Below are positions 31,931 through 39,050 of a stretch of 50,543 nt of DNA, piece by piece. Below the pieces are notes generated by a model that did not search any database, had not been told where the DNA came from, and saw nothing but the letters and a program-made list of their open reading frames with translations. The stretch lies in contig CAIXRH010000360.1 in the NCBI GenBank assembly GCA_903921785.1, forward strand, positions 1 to 50,543. The letters run 5' to 3'. Position 1 is the stretch's first letter. Each line of letters opens with the position of its first letter. Source of the stretch: an uncultured Pseudomonadota bacterium (GTDB lineage Bacteria; Myxococcota_A; UBA796; SXON01). The position numbers were made by a program, and so were the translations under genes.

Positions 31931-32023
31931 TCCGACGTCGGTGCAGATGTGGTGCATCCGCGCCGCGTGGGGCCCGTCGTGACGACGCCGCGATAGAGCG
32001 CCTCGTTGCCCCTTGGAGGCCGG

Positions 32024-34777
32024 ATGTACACGCTGTTCATCCTCAAGCTCGTCGGCGGCGCCACCGGCGACGAATTCGGCGCGTCCTTGCTCTCGCTCCA
32101 CGACCTCAACGGCGACGGGATCGATGACCTCGTCGTCGGCGCGCCCGGGGAAGACTCGGCCGGCACCGGCGCCGGCGCGGTCTACGTATATACCGGGGTT
32201 AGCTCTGGCTACCTCGACACCGAGAACCCCAGCGTGATCTTCGGGGCCGCCGCGGGAGACGGCTTCGGGCGCCACCTCGCGATCGGCGACGTGGACGGCG
32301 ACGGCGCCGAGGACCTCGCCGTGTACGGCGACGGCTGCGAGTGTGTCTCGATCGTCTCGACGCTGGACGCGTTTGCCAGCCGCGCGATCCTCACCGGCAC
32401 CACCGGCACCCAGTTCGGCGCGTCCCTCGACCTCGGGGACGTTAACGGTGACGGCTACAGCGACCTCGTCGTCGGCGCGTCGGGCGACGACACCAACGGG
32501 GTCGACGCGGGAGCGGCCTACGTCTATTCCGGTAGTGCTTCCGGGCTCTCGGCGAGCCCCGACACGATCCTCCTCGGCGAGGGCGCGGGGGACGGCTTCG
32601 GCACCGCGGTGCTCGACAGCCTCGACGCCGACGGCGACGGCGACGACGAGGTCGTCGTCGGTGCGCCAGCGGGCGGAGCCAACGATTGGGGCGCCGCCTA
32701 CGCCTGGTACGGCGATCCCGCCGGGATCGGCGCGGCGTACGACTGGAGCGACGAGAGCGCGAGCCAGTGGGACTACGGAGCGCAGCTCGCCCCCGGCGAC
32801 TTCAACGGCGACGGCTACGGGGACGTGCTGATCGTGGGCTTCGATCTGAACGGAGGCACCGAGAAGGCGAGCGGCTCCGCGAGCGGGTTTGGCAGCATCA
32901 CCTCGGGCCTTCGGGTGCTCGGCTACCTCGACTCCGTCGTGACCGGTCCCGGGGCGGACGGGGATGGGGACGGGGCGGACGACCTGCCCTACCAGGTCAC
33001 CCAGTCGGACGATTCCGATTGGGACTGCTACGACGTTCCCCGCGTCGGGTCCGGGTTCGCGGACGCGTTGGATCTGCCCGATGCCGTTTCGATCGCCGGT
33101 GCGGGCGACCAGGTCGCGGGCGCGACGGACGAGCTCTGGGTGGCGACGGCCGGCGGTGCGGGCACGGTGTACCTCGCGGTGTCGGCCGAGGACGCCGACG
33201 GCGACGGCTACCTCTCGGGCGTCCTCGACACCCTCGCGGACTGCGACGACGGCGACCGGGCCGTACACCCGAACGCCCTGGAGACCGACGGCGACGGGCT
33301 CGACAGCGACTGCGACGGCGCGGACGACGCGGCGATCTCGACCTCGCCGCCGACATGTCGGAGCGCCGCGAGCCTCCCCGAGGCGCTCGCGCTCCTCGAC
33401 GCCGACCAGCGGGTGTCGACCGACGTCCCGGGGTGGGTGGCGGAGGCGGAGGGCGCCCTCAGTGGCCGGTACATCGTCGCGGGGAGCGATGGGGACCACG
33501 TTTGGAGTCGCGCCTGGTTGCCCTCGACCGACACGCTCTCCGGGAACCTCCTCCAGGGCTGGGACGACCGCGCCTCCGTCTACGAGCTCTGGCCGGAAGA
33601 GTGTGTGTACTCGAGCTCGTCCACGTCGATCCTGGCCTTCGATCTGCAGTGGGCCACGCCCACCTCGACCGGCCTGGCGCCCATGCGCGCCGCCCACTCA
33701 TCCCACGACGACAGCGACACCTACGCGGGCCACGGGACCTGGTCCGACGGGACCGAGCGGGCGTTCTACACGACGGTCCGCTCCGGGCACTCCGAGTATG
33801 AGTCCTACACCTCGTTCTGGAACTACGACTTCGAGGGACTCACCGAGACCAGCGACGGGTGCGCCTTCTCCTACGACTACATCGACGGGGACTACGACAG
33901 CGGCATGTTCGAGGGGACGTTGTGGTCGTTCGACGACGGCGTCCACACGGCGGAGGTTTCGGTTCGGTTCACCGACGCGGGATGCGATCAATCCCATTGG
34001 ACCGTGGGCCGGCTGGACGGCGGCCCGTGGCGCCCGATCGACCCGACCACGTGGACCGACCTCGGCACGACCGACGCCGACGGGGACGGCTGGCCGGCCG
34101 ACGCCGGCGACTGCGACGACGCCGACGCCACTGTGAACCCCTGCGCCGTCGAGACGGAGGCGTGCGTCGACCAGAACTGCGATGGGTACGTCGAGGATCG
34201 GGACCGCGACGGGGTGCTCGACTGCGACGACTGCGATTCGCGGGACGAGACGGTGGGCGTGGGCGTTGAGTGGTTCGGCGAAGACGACGACGGGGACGGA
34301 TACGGGGACGTCTCGCTCGGTCCCGCGTGCGAAGCGCCGGGCGACGGCAGCTCCACCGTGCCGGACTGCGATGACTCCGACGCGCGCATCTCGCCCGAGG
34401 GCGAGGAGGACTGCAACGGCGTGGACGACGACTGCGACGGCGCCGTCGATGAGCGCGCCACGGTCGCCCACTTCCTCGATCTCGACGGCGACGGCTACGG
34501 CTCCGAGGCGGTCCCGGCCCCCGACGATCGCGCGTGCGAAGGCACGACCGTCGGGGGCGACTGCGACGACCTCGACCCGGCGACCTTTCCCGGCGCCCCC
34601 GAGGTCCCGGATGACGGCTTCGACCAGGACTGCGACGGGGAGGACTTCTCGCCCGGCTCGGGCAAGGGGGAAGCGCCGGCGGAGCCGGGCTGCTTCGGCG
34701 GCTCCGCGCTGCTCTTCGGCGCGTTGGGCCTCGCGGGCGGGGTGCGGCGGCGGCGGGCGAGGGTCCCGGCGGCCTGA
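32024..34777 (+). CDS. FG-GAP and DCDD-repeat surface protein with sorting tail
   Basis: About 917 residues from the ATG at 32024, which has a perfect GGAGG site four bases upstream. Residues 8-380 hold FG-GAP-like repeats (DLNGDGIDDLVVG, DVNGDGYSDLVVG, DADGDGDDEVVVG). DCDD/MopE-type metal-binding motifs follow at about 410-440 and 690-885 (for example GDCDDADATVNPC and EEDCNGVDDDCDG). The C-terminus PGCFGGSALLFGALGLAGG-VRRRR resembles a MYXO-CTERM anchor. The start is odd: only MYTLFILKLVGGA precedes the first blade, a poor signal peptide. Either export relies on this short segment or the gene has lost its 5' end. Confidence 0.8.
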   Translation: MYTLFILKLVGGATGDEFGASLLSLHDLNGDGIDDLVVGAPGEDSAGTGAGAVYVYTGVSSGYLDTENPSVIFGAAAGDGFGRHLAIGDVDGDGAEDLAVYGDGCECVSIVSTLDAFASRAILTGTTGTQFGASLDLGDVNGDGYSDLVVGASGDDTNGVDAGAAYVYSGSASGLSASPDTILLGEGAGDGFGTAVLDSLDADGDGDDEVVVGAPAGGANDWGAAYAWYGDPAGIGAAYDWSDESASQWDYGAQLAPGDFNGDGYGDVLIVGFDLNGGTEKASGSASGFGSITSGLRVLGYLDSVVTGPGADGDGDGADDLPYQVTQSDDSDWDCYDVPRVGSGFADALDLPDAVSIAGAGDQVAGATDELWVATAGGAGTVYLAVSAEDADGDGYLSGVLDTLADCDDGDRAVHPNALETDGDGLDSDCDGADDAAISTSPPTCRSAASLPEALALLDADQRVSTDVPGWVAEAEGALSGRYIVAGSDGDHVWSRAWLPSTDTLSGNLLQGWDDRASVYELWPEECVYSSSSTSILAFDLQWATPTSTGLAPMRAAHSSHDDSDTYAGHGTWSDGTERAFYTTVRSGHSEYESYTSFWNYDFEGLTETSDGCAFSYDYIDGDYDSGMFEGTLWSFDDGVHTAEVSVRFTDAGCDQSHWTVGRLDGGPWRPIDPTTWTDLGTTDADGDGWPADAGDCDDADATVNPCAVETEACVDQNCDGYVEDRDRDGVLDCDDCDSRDETVGVGVEWFGEDDDGDGYGDVSLGPACEAPGDGSSTVPDCDDSDARISPEGEEDCNGVDDDCDGAVDERATVAHFLDLDGDGYGSEAVPAPDDRACEGTTVGGDCDDLDPATFPGAPEVPDDGFDQDCDGEDFSPGSGKGEAPAEPGCFGGSALLFGALGLAGGVRRRRARVPAA

Positions 34778-34975: not shown

Positions 34976-36535
34976 ATGACCCGTCTCCTCTTCGCTCCGT
35001 TCGTCCTCCTCATCGCCTGTGGCACCTCCCCCGCCGACGACACCCAGCCTGGCGACGAAACGGCCGCGGTAGACGCCGACTCCGACGGGTTCACCGCCGC
35101 CGAAGACTGCGATGACGACGACGCCGCGGTGAACCCCGACGCCGCCGAGCTCTGCAACGGCGTGGACGACGACTGCGACGGCAGCCCCGACGTCGGCGCC
35201 ACCGACGCCCTTCAGGGCTACACCGACGCCGACGGCGACGGCTACGGCGACCCGGCCACCGCGACCGCCACCTGCGACCTCGGCGGGCTCGTCGACAACG
35301 GCGACGACTGCGACGACACCTCCGCGGCCATCTCCCCCGACGCCGTCGAGCTCTGCAACGAGGTGGACGACGACTGCGACGGCGCCACCGATGAGGACGC
35401 TGCGGACGCGACGACCTGGCACCCGGACACGGATGGCGACGGCTACGGCGACGCCGCCACCAGCGTGACCCAGTGCGCCCCCCCGGAGGAGATCTCCACC
35501 CCCGACGGCTCCGACTGCGACGACGCGGACGCCACCGTCATGCCCGGCGCCGAGGAGCACTGCGACGGCCTCGACAACGACTGCGATCCCGCCACGGCGG
35601 ACGCCGGCGTGTGGATCGAGCAAGGCGGCATCTGGACGGACTGGACGGCCACCCTCGCCGCCGGGACGGTCGACGGCCCCGTGAGCGGGGGGATCACCAC
35701 CGGTACCCTGCACGTCTGCGACGGCACCTGGTACCTCCAGCTCTCGATCACCGGCGACGCCGAGGTGGTCGGCCACACCGCCAGCTCCCCGGCCACGGTG
35801 TCCGCGGGCAGCTATGGCACGACGTTCTACGCGCGCGGCACCGCCGGGTCGATCAACGTCTCGATCCGCGATCTCACGATCCTGGGCGGCACGGGCGCCT
35901 ACTCGTCGAGCGCCGGGTTCTCCGGAGGGGGCGGCGTGCTCTGCGACGGGATGGGTAGCGACACCCTTGCGCTCGACGGCGTCACGATCACGGGCGGCCA
36001 AACCTACACCGGCGGCGCGGTCCTCGCGGTCGACTGCGACGTGAGCCTCACCAACTCCACCCTCTCCGGGAACCAGTCGGACTACGGCGGAGGATTCCTC
36101 GGGTACTCCACCTGGAGCGACGCCTCGCTGACGATGACGGACAGCGTGATCGAGGGCAACGTGGCGGGGACCGGCGGGGGGATCTACGTGCAGGCTCCGA
36201 GCGCAAGCACGCTGACGATGACCAACTCCCTCGTCCGCGACAACAGCGCCGAGTACGGGGGAGGCGGACTGGCGACGTTCTACGCGGTGGGCAGCACCTG
36301 CAACGCCGACGCGGGGACGTACTCCGGGGTCGTCGGCAATTCTTCGCCTGACGGGGCCGTTTTGCTCTACGACTACAGCTACGGCGGCTCCTTCACTTCC
36401 GCCGGCTGCAACTTCGGCGCGACGGAGACGACGGACGACAACCTTCCCAACGACATCTACGTAGGCGATCTCGCGACCGGCTACGCCTACGGCGACGACG
36501 CCACGTTCACCTGCGACGGCGCCGGCTGCCGCTGA
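34976..36535 (+). CDS. DCDD-repeat lipoprotein with beta-helix-like domain
   Basis: A 519-residue lipoprotein (lipobox LLIAC). Residues 30-200 carry several MopE-like putative metal-binding units, for example AEDCDDDDAAVNPDAAELC, NGVDDDCDGSPD and DGSDCDDADATVMPGAEEHC. Residues 220-500 are rich in short repeats such as SLTNSTLSGNQSDYGGGF and TMTNSLVRDNSAEYGGGG, a right-handed parallel beta-helix pattern (polymorphic outer-membrane/pectate-lyase-like). No catalytic residues are recognised. An AAGG-like ribosome site precedes the ATG, with TAAGGT further upstream. A strong hairpin follows the stop. Confidence 0.75.
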   Translation: MTRLLFAPFVLLIACGTSPADDTQPGDETAAVDADSDGFTAAEDCDDDDAAVNPDAAELCNGVDDDCDGSPDVGATDALQGYTDADGDGYGDPATATATCDLGGLVDNGDDCDDTSAAISPDAVELCNEVDDDCDGATDEDAADATTWHPDTDGDGYGDAATSVTQCAPPEEISTPDGSDCDDADATVMPGAEEHCDGLDNDCDPATADAGVWIEQGGIWTDWTATLAAGTVDGPVSGGITTGTLHVCDGTWYLQLSITGDAEVVGHTASSPATVSAGSYGTTFYARGTAGSINVSIRDLTILGGTGAYSSSAGFSGGGGVLCDGMGSDTLALDGVTITGGQTYTGGAVLAVDCDVSLTNSTLSGNQSDYGGGFLGYSTWSDASLTMTDSVIEGNVAGTGGGIYVQAPSASTLTMTNSLVRDNSAEYGGGGLATFYAVGSTCNADAGTYSGVVGNSSPDGAVLLYDYSYGGSFTSAGCNFGATETTDDNLPNDIYVGDLATGYAYGDDATFTCDGAGCR

Positions 36536-37119: not shown

Positions 37120-37141
37120 GGGGCGGTTACTAATCTTTTCG

Positions 37142-37170
37142 TTGACGGTCTACGAATGCCTTAGTAGATT
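37142..37170 (+). promoter_or_regulatory. blaI-like gene promoter with palindromic operator
   Basis: TTGACG (37142-37147) and TAGATT (37165-37170) are separated by 17 bases. A near-perfect palindrome, TCTACGAA-TGCC-TTAGTAGA (37149-37168, one mismatch per arm), fills the spacer and overlaps the -10. The -10 ends six bases before the ATG at 37177, so transcription should begin at or next to the start codon. A BlaI-type repressor bound here would block RNA polymerase and give self-regulation. Confidence 0.7.
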
Positions 37171-37176
37171 GTCGAC

Positions 37177-37554
37177 ATGCCCGATCCGCGCCTGTTGACC
37201 GCCGCCGAGCTCGAGCTCATGCACGTGCTCTGGGAGCGCGGCCCGAGCACGGTGGCCGAGGTGATCGAGGGGCTCCAGGGCCCCGCCCGCGCCTACACCA
37301 CTGTCGCCACGCTGCTCAAGATCCTCGACGACAAGGGCTTCGCCCGCACGGAGCGCGAGGGGCGGCGGCTGGTGTACGCCCCTGTCGTCATCCGCGGCGA
37401 ATACGAAGCCACCGCCGTGCGCGATGTCGTGCAGCGGGTGTTCTCCGGGGACGCCGCCGCGCTCGTCCGCGCCCTGGTGGACACCGAGCCGCTCGACGAC
37501 GCCACCCGCGCCGAGCTGGCGTTGCTCCTCATCCGCGCGGAGTCGGGGCGATGA
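37177..37554 (+). CDS. BlaI/MecI-family transcriptional repressor
   Basis: A 125-residue winged-helix protein of the penicillinase repressor family. LTAAELELMHVLWERGPSTV begins the DNA-binding domain, and TTVATLLKILDDKGFARTE is the recognition helix and wing region. The C-terminal part is the dimerisation segment. In the bla/mec systems the repressor is cleaved after an M56 membrane protease senses beta-lactam. The stop overlaps the M56 start (ATGA). The family cleavage site (Asn-Phe) is not obvious here. There is no Shine-Dalgarno sequence; the mRNA may be leaderless. Confidence 0.88.
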   Translation: MPDPRLLTAAELELMHVLWERGPSTVAEVIEGLQGPARAYTTVATLLKILDDKGFARTEREGRRLVYAPVVIRGEYEATAVRDVVQRVFSGDAAALVRALVDTEPLDDATRAELALLLIRAESGR

Positions 37555-39050
37555 TCGGCGCGTGGATCCCCCTGCAGGTGGCGGTCCTGGCGATCGGCGG
37601 CGCGGCCCGCTTGCTCGTGCGCTTCGTGCCGAGTGAAGCCCAGACGCTCCAACGTGCGCTGCTCCTGGCCGCCCCGCTCGCATTGGCGGCCGGCTGGATG
37701 CCGGGAGAACGACCGTTCCTGCCGTCGGCGCAGGTGTGGGCGCCCGCCTCCGGCGAGGTCGCCCCGCGGGTTTCCCTTGGCGCCTCGCCGGCGCTCCCGG
37801 TCCCGCCCGCCGCCGAAGCGCCCGTCGCGCTCGCCCTGATGCTGGCCGGGACGGTGCCGGGCCTGCGCGCGCTCCTCGCGCTTCGCCGCCAGCTCTCGGG
37901 CGCTCACCGCCTCCGTCGGGTGCGCGGGGTGGAGGTGTGGCTCGGGCCGAACGTGGCCACGCCGTTCGCGGTCTGGCTGGGGCGCCCCGTCGTCGTCCTC
38001 GACCCCGACACGGCCTTCGATCCTGAGCTCTCCCGGCTGGCGATCCGCCACGAGCTGCAGCACCACCGCCACCACGATGCGCTCCTGGCCTGGGGCCTCG
38101 TCCTCCTCGGCGTCGCCTCCCCCTTCGCCGCCTGGCTCCGCGCGCCGTTCTCCGAGGCCGAGGAGCTCGCGGTGGACCGGGCGTTGGTCGCCCGCGGCGT
38201 CCCCGCCCGGCCGTACGCCGCCGCGCTCGCCCGGATCGCCCTGCGCGCCGCCCCCTCTCCGTCGCTGCTCACCGCGGGCCTGCCCGCCTTCCTCCCCCGG
38301 AGACTCCGGATGTTGCTCGCGCCCCCCGCGGCCCGCCGCCCCGTCACCCTCGCCGCCCGCGCCACCGTCGCGCTCGTGCTCCTCGGCGCGGCCCCGCTCG
38401 GCTGGGCCACCGACGGCCTCGCCCAGGATCATCGCGTCGATCCTGCGCGCTTCACCTCCGCCGCCGAGCGCCTCGACGACGCGGGCGTGTTCCTCGGCGC
38501 CAACGACCCCGCGGTCGCCGCCGCGCTCGACCAGCTCGTCGCCACGCCCCGCGGACGCGCCTGGGCGGAGCAGTCGCTGGCCCGCGCCGAGGCGATCCGT
38601 CCGGCGATCGAGGCCGCCCTGGCCGACGCCGGGCTGCCGCCGGAGCTCAGCGCGGTCCCGTTCGTGGAGAGCGGCTACCGCAACCGCGCGGAGTCGGAGC
38701 TGCCCGCGAGCGTGCCCGTGGCCAGCCGCGGCGCCGGCTACTGGATGTTCATTCAGCCGACCGCGCGGGCGTACGGCCTCAGCGTGGACGCTTCCGTGGA
38801 CGAACGAACCGACCTTGGGAAGGAGACCGCGGCGGCCGTCGCGCTCTTCCGCGCCGACCACGACCGCTACGGCGACTGGGCGCTCACCCTCGCCGCCTAC
38901 AACCAGGGAGAACGAGCGGTCGATCGCGCCATCGAGGCCGGCCACAGCCGCGACGTGTTCACGCTCCAGGAGGCCGGCCTGCTCAACGACTACGTGGCGC
39001 AGGTATACGCCGCCGCGATCGTGATCGCCGACGCGTCGCTCCTGCGCTGA
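37551..39050 (+). CDS. M56 membrane protease fused to a lytic transglycosylase
   Basis: A 499-residue protein. Residues 1-290 form a BlaR1/MecR1-type M56 protease: membrane segments, HELQHH (HExxH, 167-171) and a downstream acidic EAEELAVDRAL (200-212). A membrane helix at about 268-288 precedes the extracytoplasmic part. Residues 350-470 match an SLT/MltD lytic transglycosylase: candidate catalytic Glu373 in FVESGY, GAGYWMFIQPTARAYGL and AYNQG. BlaR1 normally has a penicillin-binding domain here. The inference is that this protein senses or cuts peptidoglycan and signals to the upstream BlaI-type repressor. The start is set by the ATGA overlap. Confidence 0.82.
   Translation: MIGAWIPLQVAVLAIGGAARLLVRFVPSEAQTLQRALLLAAPLALAAGWMPGERPFLPSAQVWAPASGEVAPRVSLGASPALPVPPAAEAPVALALMLAGTVPGLRALLALRRQLSGAHRLRRVRGVEVWLGPNVATPFAVWLGRPVVVLDPDTAFDPELSRLAIRHELQHHRHHDALLAWGLVLLGVASPFAAWLRAPFSEAEELAVDRALVARGVPARPYAAALARIALRAAPSPSLLTAGLPAFLPRRLRMLLAPPAARRPVTLAARATVALVLLGAAPLGWATDGLAQDHRVDPARFTSAAERLDDAGVFLGANDPAVAAALDQLVATPRGRAWAEQSLARAEAIRPAIEAALADAGLPPELSAVPFVESGYRNRAESELPASVPVASRGAGYWMFIQPTARAYGLSVDASVDERTDLGKETAAAVALFRADHDRYGDWALTLAAYNQGERAVDRAIEAGHSRDVFTLQEAGLLNDYVAQVYAAAIVIADASLLR

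Follow-up and report, generated by a model that had tools for sequence, protein, structure and literature searches.

A recurrent two-gene cassette of a BlaI-type repressor and an M56 protease fused to a lytic transglycosylase

The locus and its two proteins

The window, which is the whole stretch of DNA analysed here (50,543 nucleotides, contig CAIXRH010000360.1 of an uncultured bacterium), carries a repressor gene of the BlaI type that overlaps a gene for a membrane protease of family M56 with a transglycosylase (SLT) domain joined to it. The features to which we refer, all on the forward strand, are the following.

37129-37142, +: putative operator dyad 1, ACTAATCTTTTCGT, fitting ACKAAN4TTMGT
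37152-37165, +: putative operator dyad 2, ACGAATGCCTTAGT, fitting ACKAAN4TTMGT, 23 bp from dyad 1
37142-37170, +: sigma-70-like promoter, TTGACG-17 bp-TAGATT (9 of 12 matches; 0 in shuffles)
37177-37554, +: blaI-type repressor gene, 125 aa (Penicillinase_R, PF03965, E 1.9e-28)
37551-37554, +: ATGA overlap of the blaI stop with the fusion start, pointing to translational coupling (blaI-fusion junctions at other loci are similarly tight)
37551-39050, +: M56-SLT fusion gene, 499 aa (open reading frame, Pfam matches and relatives)
37551-38411, +: BlaR1-like N-terminal half of the fusion (structural alignment of the model)
38049-38177, +: M56 zinc site, H167-E-x-x-H171, D176 and E205-x-x-x-D209, invariant, with Y222 and R251 downstream
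38481-39047, +: extracytoplasmic MltD-like lytic transglycosylase domain, residues 311-499 (fold and profile)
38667-38672, +: catalytic Glu373-Ser374 (the ES motif)
38745-38747, +: Met399, where GxWQF/GLMQ has Gln (motif alignment)

A preliminary description, made from the sequence alone, had proposed this pairing of a blaI repressor with an M56-transglycosylase fusion and the ATGA overlap of their genes; both hold, the coordinates are right, and Pfam recognises both proteins. The repressor is a full-length Penicillinase_R protein, a winged helix followed by C-terminal dimerisation helices, and its profile matches MecI from end to end (1sd6, 5e-17). It does not keep the Asn-Phe step at which S. 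aureus BlaI is cut: the aligned residues are Arg98-Ala99, next to an invariant Leu100. The attempt to read a cleavage site across from S. aureus Asn101-Phe102 was dropped, and no conclusion is drawn from it. Just upstream of the cassette, at 32006-34777 and 34976-36535, lie genes for large Asp/Gly-rich proteins with what look by eye to be DxDxD-type repeats, one of them ending in a hydrophobic-Arg tail that resembles a MYXO-CTERM signal.

In the N-terminal half of the fusion, Peptidase_M56 matches residues 120-235 with 33.3 bits (cut-off 31). The structural model that had been proposed as a check was built with AlphaFold2 (mean pLDDT 86.7, pTM 0.64, the relative placement of the domains being uncertain), and its two halves match BlaR1 and MltD. 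Residues 1-250 align with S. aureus BlaR1 (8exs) at Z 16.6 and rmsd 3.7 over 227 residues; the model has likely transmembrane helices at 2-25, 30-48, 86-115 and 263-287, with the M56 core between the last two. A second model, of a Steroidobacter protein, reached pLDDT 84.4 and pTM 0.75, again with uncertain interdomain geometry. H167, E168, H171, D176, E205, D209, Y222 and R251 are invariant in the 22 relatives that we call type 1, and they align with BlaR1 His201, Glu202, His205, Asp210, Glu242, Asp246, Tyr261 and Arg294, respectively; the roles of most of these BlaR1 residues have been described (PMC9834060). The protein thus has the N-terminal membrane M56 gluzincin of BlaR1/MecR1 (HExxH and ExxxD, with the additional Asp, Tyr and Arg). 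It also has the repressor partner gene, as gene order and overlap establish; cotranscription of the two is predicted.

The transglycosylase half is matched by the Pfam SLT family at residues 352-464 (54.5 bits). In the model, residues 311-499 align with P. aeruginosa MltD (8rhe) at Z 19.0 and rmsd 2.0 over 176 residues, and a family profile search of PDB sequences recovered both BlaR1 and MltD, the latter at 2.6e-33, so that fold and sequence concur on the SLT/MltD-like character that the preliminary description had given to the extracytoplasmic part. Its candidate Glu373 and AYNQG are both present (the latter at residues 449-453), and the ES pair and AYN motif lie within a lysozyme-like fold, as in SLT/GH23 enzymes; Glu373 is invariant in 22/22 type-1 relatives, and ES in all fusions of type 1 and of the second type described below. 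The Gln of GLMQ/GxWQF that marks MltD-like SLT enzymes is absent from the window protein. At that position 18 of the 22 type-1 fusions have Met and four have Gln, while all 26 related domains that lack M56 have Gln, and the GLMQ motif has been described as essential for active-site architecture (PMC550655). Since the Gln is replaced in so many type-1 fusions, full catalytic activity of their transglycosylase cannot be assumed, and turnover may be weak. Pfam matches no LysM repeats in the window fusion or the 22 type-1 members, and no C-terminal penicillin-binding (transpeptidase-like, SxxK) sensor in the 22, which contain only M56 and SLT domains (one of them with M23 in addition).

Recurrence of the fusion

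Type-1 relatives were sought in 63 genomes of the window's order, in another family of its class and in named genomes. A search of the genome contigs with the single fusion protein as query gave no match; relatives were recovered with an alignment as query. Full-length type-1 fusions occur in 10/63 genomes of the order and in three genomes of the other family (in one of the 10, G058, the fusion shows as two matches inside a single open frame). The carriers among named genomes are two gammaproteobacterial isolates, Steroidobacter agaridevorans SA29-B and Peristeroidobacter agariperforans KA5-B, together with other gammaproteobacterial metagenome-assembled genomes (MAGs) and three MAGs of Bdellovibrionales. 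Most carriers are MAGs. Locus L066, which bears the label Myxococcota, and G047, from the window's order, are one contig, so that the window most likely comes from Myxococcota. L070 (CAMCWU010000008.1), deposited as a Klebsiella pneumoniae MAG, is a contig identical to that of G058 and probably mislabelled.

All 22 type-1 relatives match Peptidase_M56 and SLT individually and keep both active-site signatures. At every locus that reaches far enough, blaI lies directly upstream, usually overlapping, the exception being L079, which is 5'-truncated, lacks the start of M56 and has no blaI. The search for M56-SLT fusions beside blaI that the preliminary description had recommended has thus led to three phyla, with carriers in Myxococcota, Gammaproteobacteria and Bdellovibrionales. 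Chance as the source of the arrangement is excluded, because the domain pair, the gene order and the paired dyads recur in all three and because the paired dyad on its own finds blaI. An SLT-domain tree puts the fusions into a single supported group (98/93), which also holds three proteins without M56 (L012:1225-1953; L013:1504-2130, reverse strand; L014:1330-2058); these look like later separations from the fusion.

Operators, targets and a second type of fusion

Upstream of blaI, 18/19 loci have paired 14-bp dyads (ACKAA-N4-TTMGT), 22-23 bp apart, with no more than two mismatches summed over the pair. In the window, the -35 element of the promoter touches dyad 1, and the spacer and -10 cover dyad 2; the predicted transcript start falls at about the blaI ATG, and the mRNA may be leaderless. 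When 379 genomes of the phylum were scanned for the pair at 0-1 mismatch, blind to gene positions, 12 sites were found, all of them directly before a blaI gene, while control patterns gave no match in any genome. That a gene-blind scan lands only before blaI genes argues strongly, at the level of sequence, for the dyads being BlaI operators, and the window repressor would thereby have the dyad operator at its own promoter that is usual for Penicillinase_R proteins. The palindromic operator that the preliminary description had assigned to the repressor gene is accordingly palindromic and BlaI's own; it consists of two tandem dyads rather than one, and its motif serves blaI-M56 operons more widely in the phylum.

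M56-transglycosylase cassettes account for 11 of the 12 sites, eight of them type 1. Three of the four remaining sites precede operons for M56 proteins that also end in an SLT domain (type 2); at the fourth the contig stops soon after blaI, and no partner can be read. A profile search added further members, among them two proteins of 648 aa that combine M56, SLT and M23 domains, and it also brought up M56 proteins with different C-terminal parts. Type-2 SLT domains keep canonical ES, GLMQ and AYN motifs and have Slt70-type enzymes as nearest kin, where the type-1 domain has MltD, and in a tree of M56 domains a 100/100 branch sets type 1 apart from both type 2 and the M56 proteins that lack SLT. 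Because type 2 thus combines a separate M56 lineage with an Slt70-like, not MltD-like, domain, the simplest reading of the sequences is that fusion of a BlaI-controlled M56 protease to a lytic transglycosylase took place at least twice. Extensions by an M23 endopeptidase occur in both lineages, L079 being of type 1 and L175 and L176 of type 2.

L175:1599-3542, -: M56-SLT-M23 triple fusion, blaI upstream
L176:1222-3165, +: M56-SLT-M23 triple fusion, blaI upstream
L079:4025-5530, +: M56-SLT-M23 triple fusion, M56 start truncated

Other M56 proteins were met along the way. Two that adjoin blaI (L177:1073-3142 and L180:1131-2948, both on the reverse strand) end in a long Leu/Glu-rich repeat rather than an enzyme. 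A second M56 protein in the window's own genome (L001:3-1031, G000:C23) lies at a contig end, with the upstream gene off the contig and its C-terminal part unmatched.

Additional single dyads in the relatives had been put down to chance. That explanation was partly dropped, some of them being operators of other blaI-M56 operons: a triple dyad in genome G032 (C1:197587-197637) precedes the M56 gene of L179. Since additional dyads stand before such operons, the operator is general to blaI-M56 operons in the phylum and not private to the M56-SLT cassette. The L179 operon (L179:841-2831; G032:C1:197587-199195), the second of the blaI-M56 kind in G032, has three dyads in tandem before it, and the C-terminal part of its M56 protein has no Pfam match. 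G032 carries it together with an M56-SLT cassette, making cross-talk between the two possible.

What else might BlaI control? Three Steroidobacteraceae genomes (S. agaridevorans, 8.0 Mb; P. agariperforans, 7.7 Mb; and one more) each contain exactly two copies of the strict dyad ACTAAN4TTAGT, and these are the two members of the pair ahead of the cassette; extra sites with one mismatch number 1 to 8 per genome, far below the control-pattern count. Comparison of the two isolates, which took in one-mismatch sites with known surroundings, found a single dyad common to both (L148 and L147, each around position 1501); it is flanked on one side by a divergent RpiR-like regulator and on the other by an aldolase/PfkB-like pair. 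As it sits within a stretch that is 94% identical anyway, this is weak evidence for a second target, and the dyad may be a site of the RpiR-like regulator itself. Four other single dyads in the window's genome (96% complete) were set aside as targets: they lie inside reading frames with third-position GC of 0.84-0.92. Among 60 genomes of the order there are no further operator pairs beyond chance-level 3-mismatch matches, and in near-complete genomes promoter-placed operators stand only before the cassette itself. No third gene is conserved, the neighbours varying between loci around a constant blaI-fusion pair; neither a conserved neighbour nor a second promoter-placed operator in the loci and scanned genomes points to a beta-lactam resistance gene under BlaI control. 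Since promoter-placed operators precede only the cassette and its neighbours are not conserved, the cassette most likely regulates mainly itself and little else, within the strict and near-strict paired dyads that the scans cover; degenerate or single-dyad targets could lie beyond them. The operator scan that was to have revealed a wider regulon has therefore yielded no separate one.

A self-inducing cell-wall enzyme?

In BlaR1 the protease faces the cytoplasm and the C-terminal domain lies outside; when that domain is acylated, a loop on the outside shifts and cleavage of BlaI at Asn101-Phe102 is switched on (PMC9834060). By analogy, we infer that the transglycosylase senses peptidoglycan and that M56 cleaves the BlaI encoded beside it. 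At rest, BlaI dimers would occupy the two tandem operators over the only promoter, keeping repressor and fusion low. The fusion would be an inner-membrane protein, its zinc protease toward the cytoplasm and its transglycosylase in the periplasm, where an altered encounter with peptidoglycan strands, ends or turnover fragments would change the periplasmic side; the M56 protease would then become active, BlaI would be inactivated, and more fusion would be made. No other promoter with the operator having been found, the output of the circuit would be the fusion itself, sensor and effector in one protein, which amounts to a self-inducing switch for a cell-wall enzyme. To this reading, an autoregulated two-gene cassette of BlaR1/BlaI type whose transglycosylase is the likely signal-receiving domain and also the output of a self-inducing loop, with no separate resistance gene under its control, we give a probability of about 0.5. 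Its more specific form would have a peptidoglycan-cutting enzyme serve as receptor, with site occupancy or turnover driving a BlaR1-type protease to inactivate BlaI in a one-protein sensor-effector tuned to the wall and evolved at least twice; we advance that form tentatively, at a little short of an even chance.

The transglycosylase might instead be a regulated product only, carried on the chain of its own antirepressor, with the signal perceived by membrane loops, by BlaI binding a cytoplasmic muropeptide, or by some other protein. Self-targeting does require the enzyme to be the main output, direct binding of a peptidoglycan dipeptide to BlaI/MecI is on record for Bacillus (B. licheniformis BlaI; PMC3305447), and the added M23 domains resemble extra enzyme more than extra sensor. 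Yet the domain at the equivalent position in BlaR1, the solved relative, is the sensor (PMC9834060), and a product would need only a separate gene in the operon, whereas the fusion arose twice; on balance we consider this rather unlikely. The converse, that the transglycosylase has degenerated into a slow or non-cleaving glycan-binding sensor whose real output is another gene under weaker operators or another M56 substrate, draws on the Met that stands for the motif Gln in most type-1 members and in none of the 26 related M56-less domains. It has to contend with the invariant ES, with the four type-1 members that retain Gln, with canonical GLMQ throughout type 2, with the lack of operator pairs above chance level in those 60 genomes and with one-mismatch sites fewer than in controls, and it seems to us improbable.

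Self-cleavage by M56 in a loop at about Gly243-Leu244 could also alter or detach the transglycosylase half, with BlaI control merely topping up the pool. The autocleavage loop of BlaR1 does align with a Gly-hydrophobic step in many of the fusions, just before the invariant Arg251; the alignment there is gapped, however, and the BlaR1 loop is cytoplasmic, so that cleavage alone would not free an outer domain, and regulated release of this kind strikes us as very improbable. That two unrelated genes were joined by chance or misassembly, which the prevalence of MAGs among the carriers might suggest, has negligible probability and was rejected because the architecture recurs in three phyla and in the genomes of two isolates, with open frames throughout and conserved operators.

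If the self-inducing reading is correct, the cassette works like a BlaR1/BlaI system, yet it lacks the penicillin-binding domain that defines the family, and because of that we consider it a variant rather than a member. With BlaR1/MecR1-BlaI/MecI of S. aureus and B. licheniformis it shares the Penicillinase_R repressor, the four-helix M56 gluzincin with every catalytic residue, an extracytoplasmic domain in the sensor's place and operator dyads at the repressor's own promoter. It differs in having a lytic transglycosylase there instead of a penicillin-binding domain with SxxK, no beta-lactamase or PBP2a gene alongside, another operator sequence and, apparently, itself as sole target. BlaI_0696 and BlaI_1845 of C. 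thermocellum also have very small, self-targeting regulons, and their dyads come in pairs that can accommodate four BlaI protomers (PMC8457756), but they have GTCTAT repeats as operator, BlaR1 partners and separate effector genes. The transglycosylase half shares fold, catalytic Glu-Ser and 30% identity over the domain with the MltD family (1D; P. aeruginosa MltD, 8rhe, for example); unlike MltD, the fusion is without LysM repeats, is anchored in the membrane by M56 and has Met for Gln in the WQF motif. Peptidoglycan hydrolases joined to M56 have a precedent in the M23-M56 fusions that a review of M23 hydrolases records as a rare architecture (<1% of hits), with no repressor, operator or mechanism described (PMC9662197); here the joined part is SLT or SLT-M23. 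In the open-access literature, where absence is not proof of absence, no account of an M56-transglycosylase fusion under BlaI came up.

Little is understood of how Gram-negative bacteria directly sense damage to their wall, and BlaR1 has been known chiefly for detecting antibiotics. That a BlaR1-type chassis has acquired a wall-cutting enzyme as its outside domain at least twice, under the control of its own repressor, points to M56-BlaI circuits as a general platform for surveillance of the wall, and to hydrolases as possible receptors or self-regulated outputs. With cultivable carriers in Steroidobacter and Peristeroidobacter and a defined promoter and operator, the model is open to experiment.
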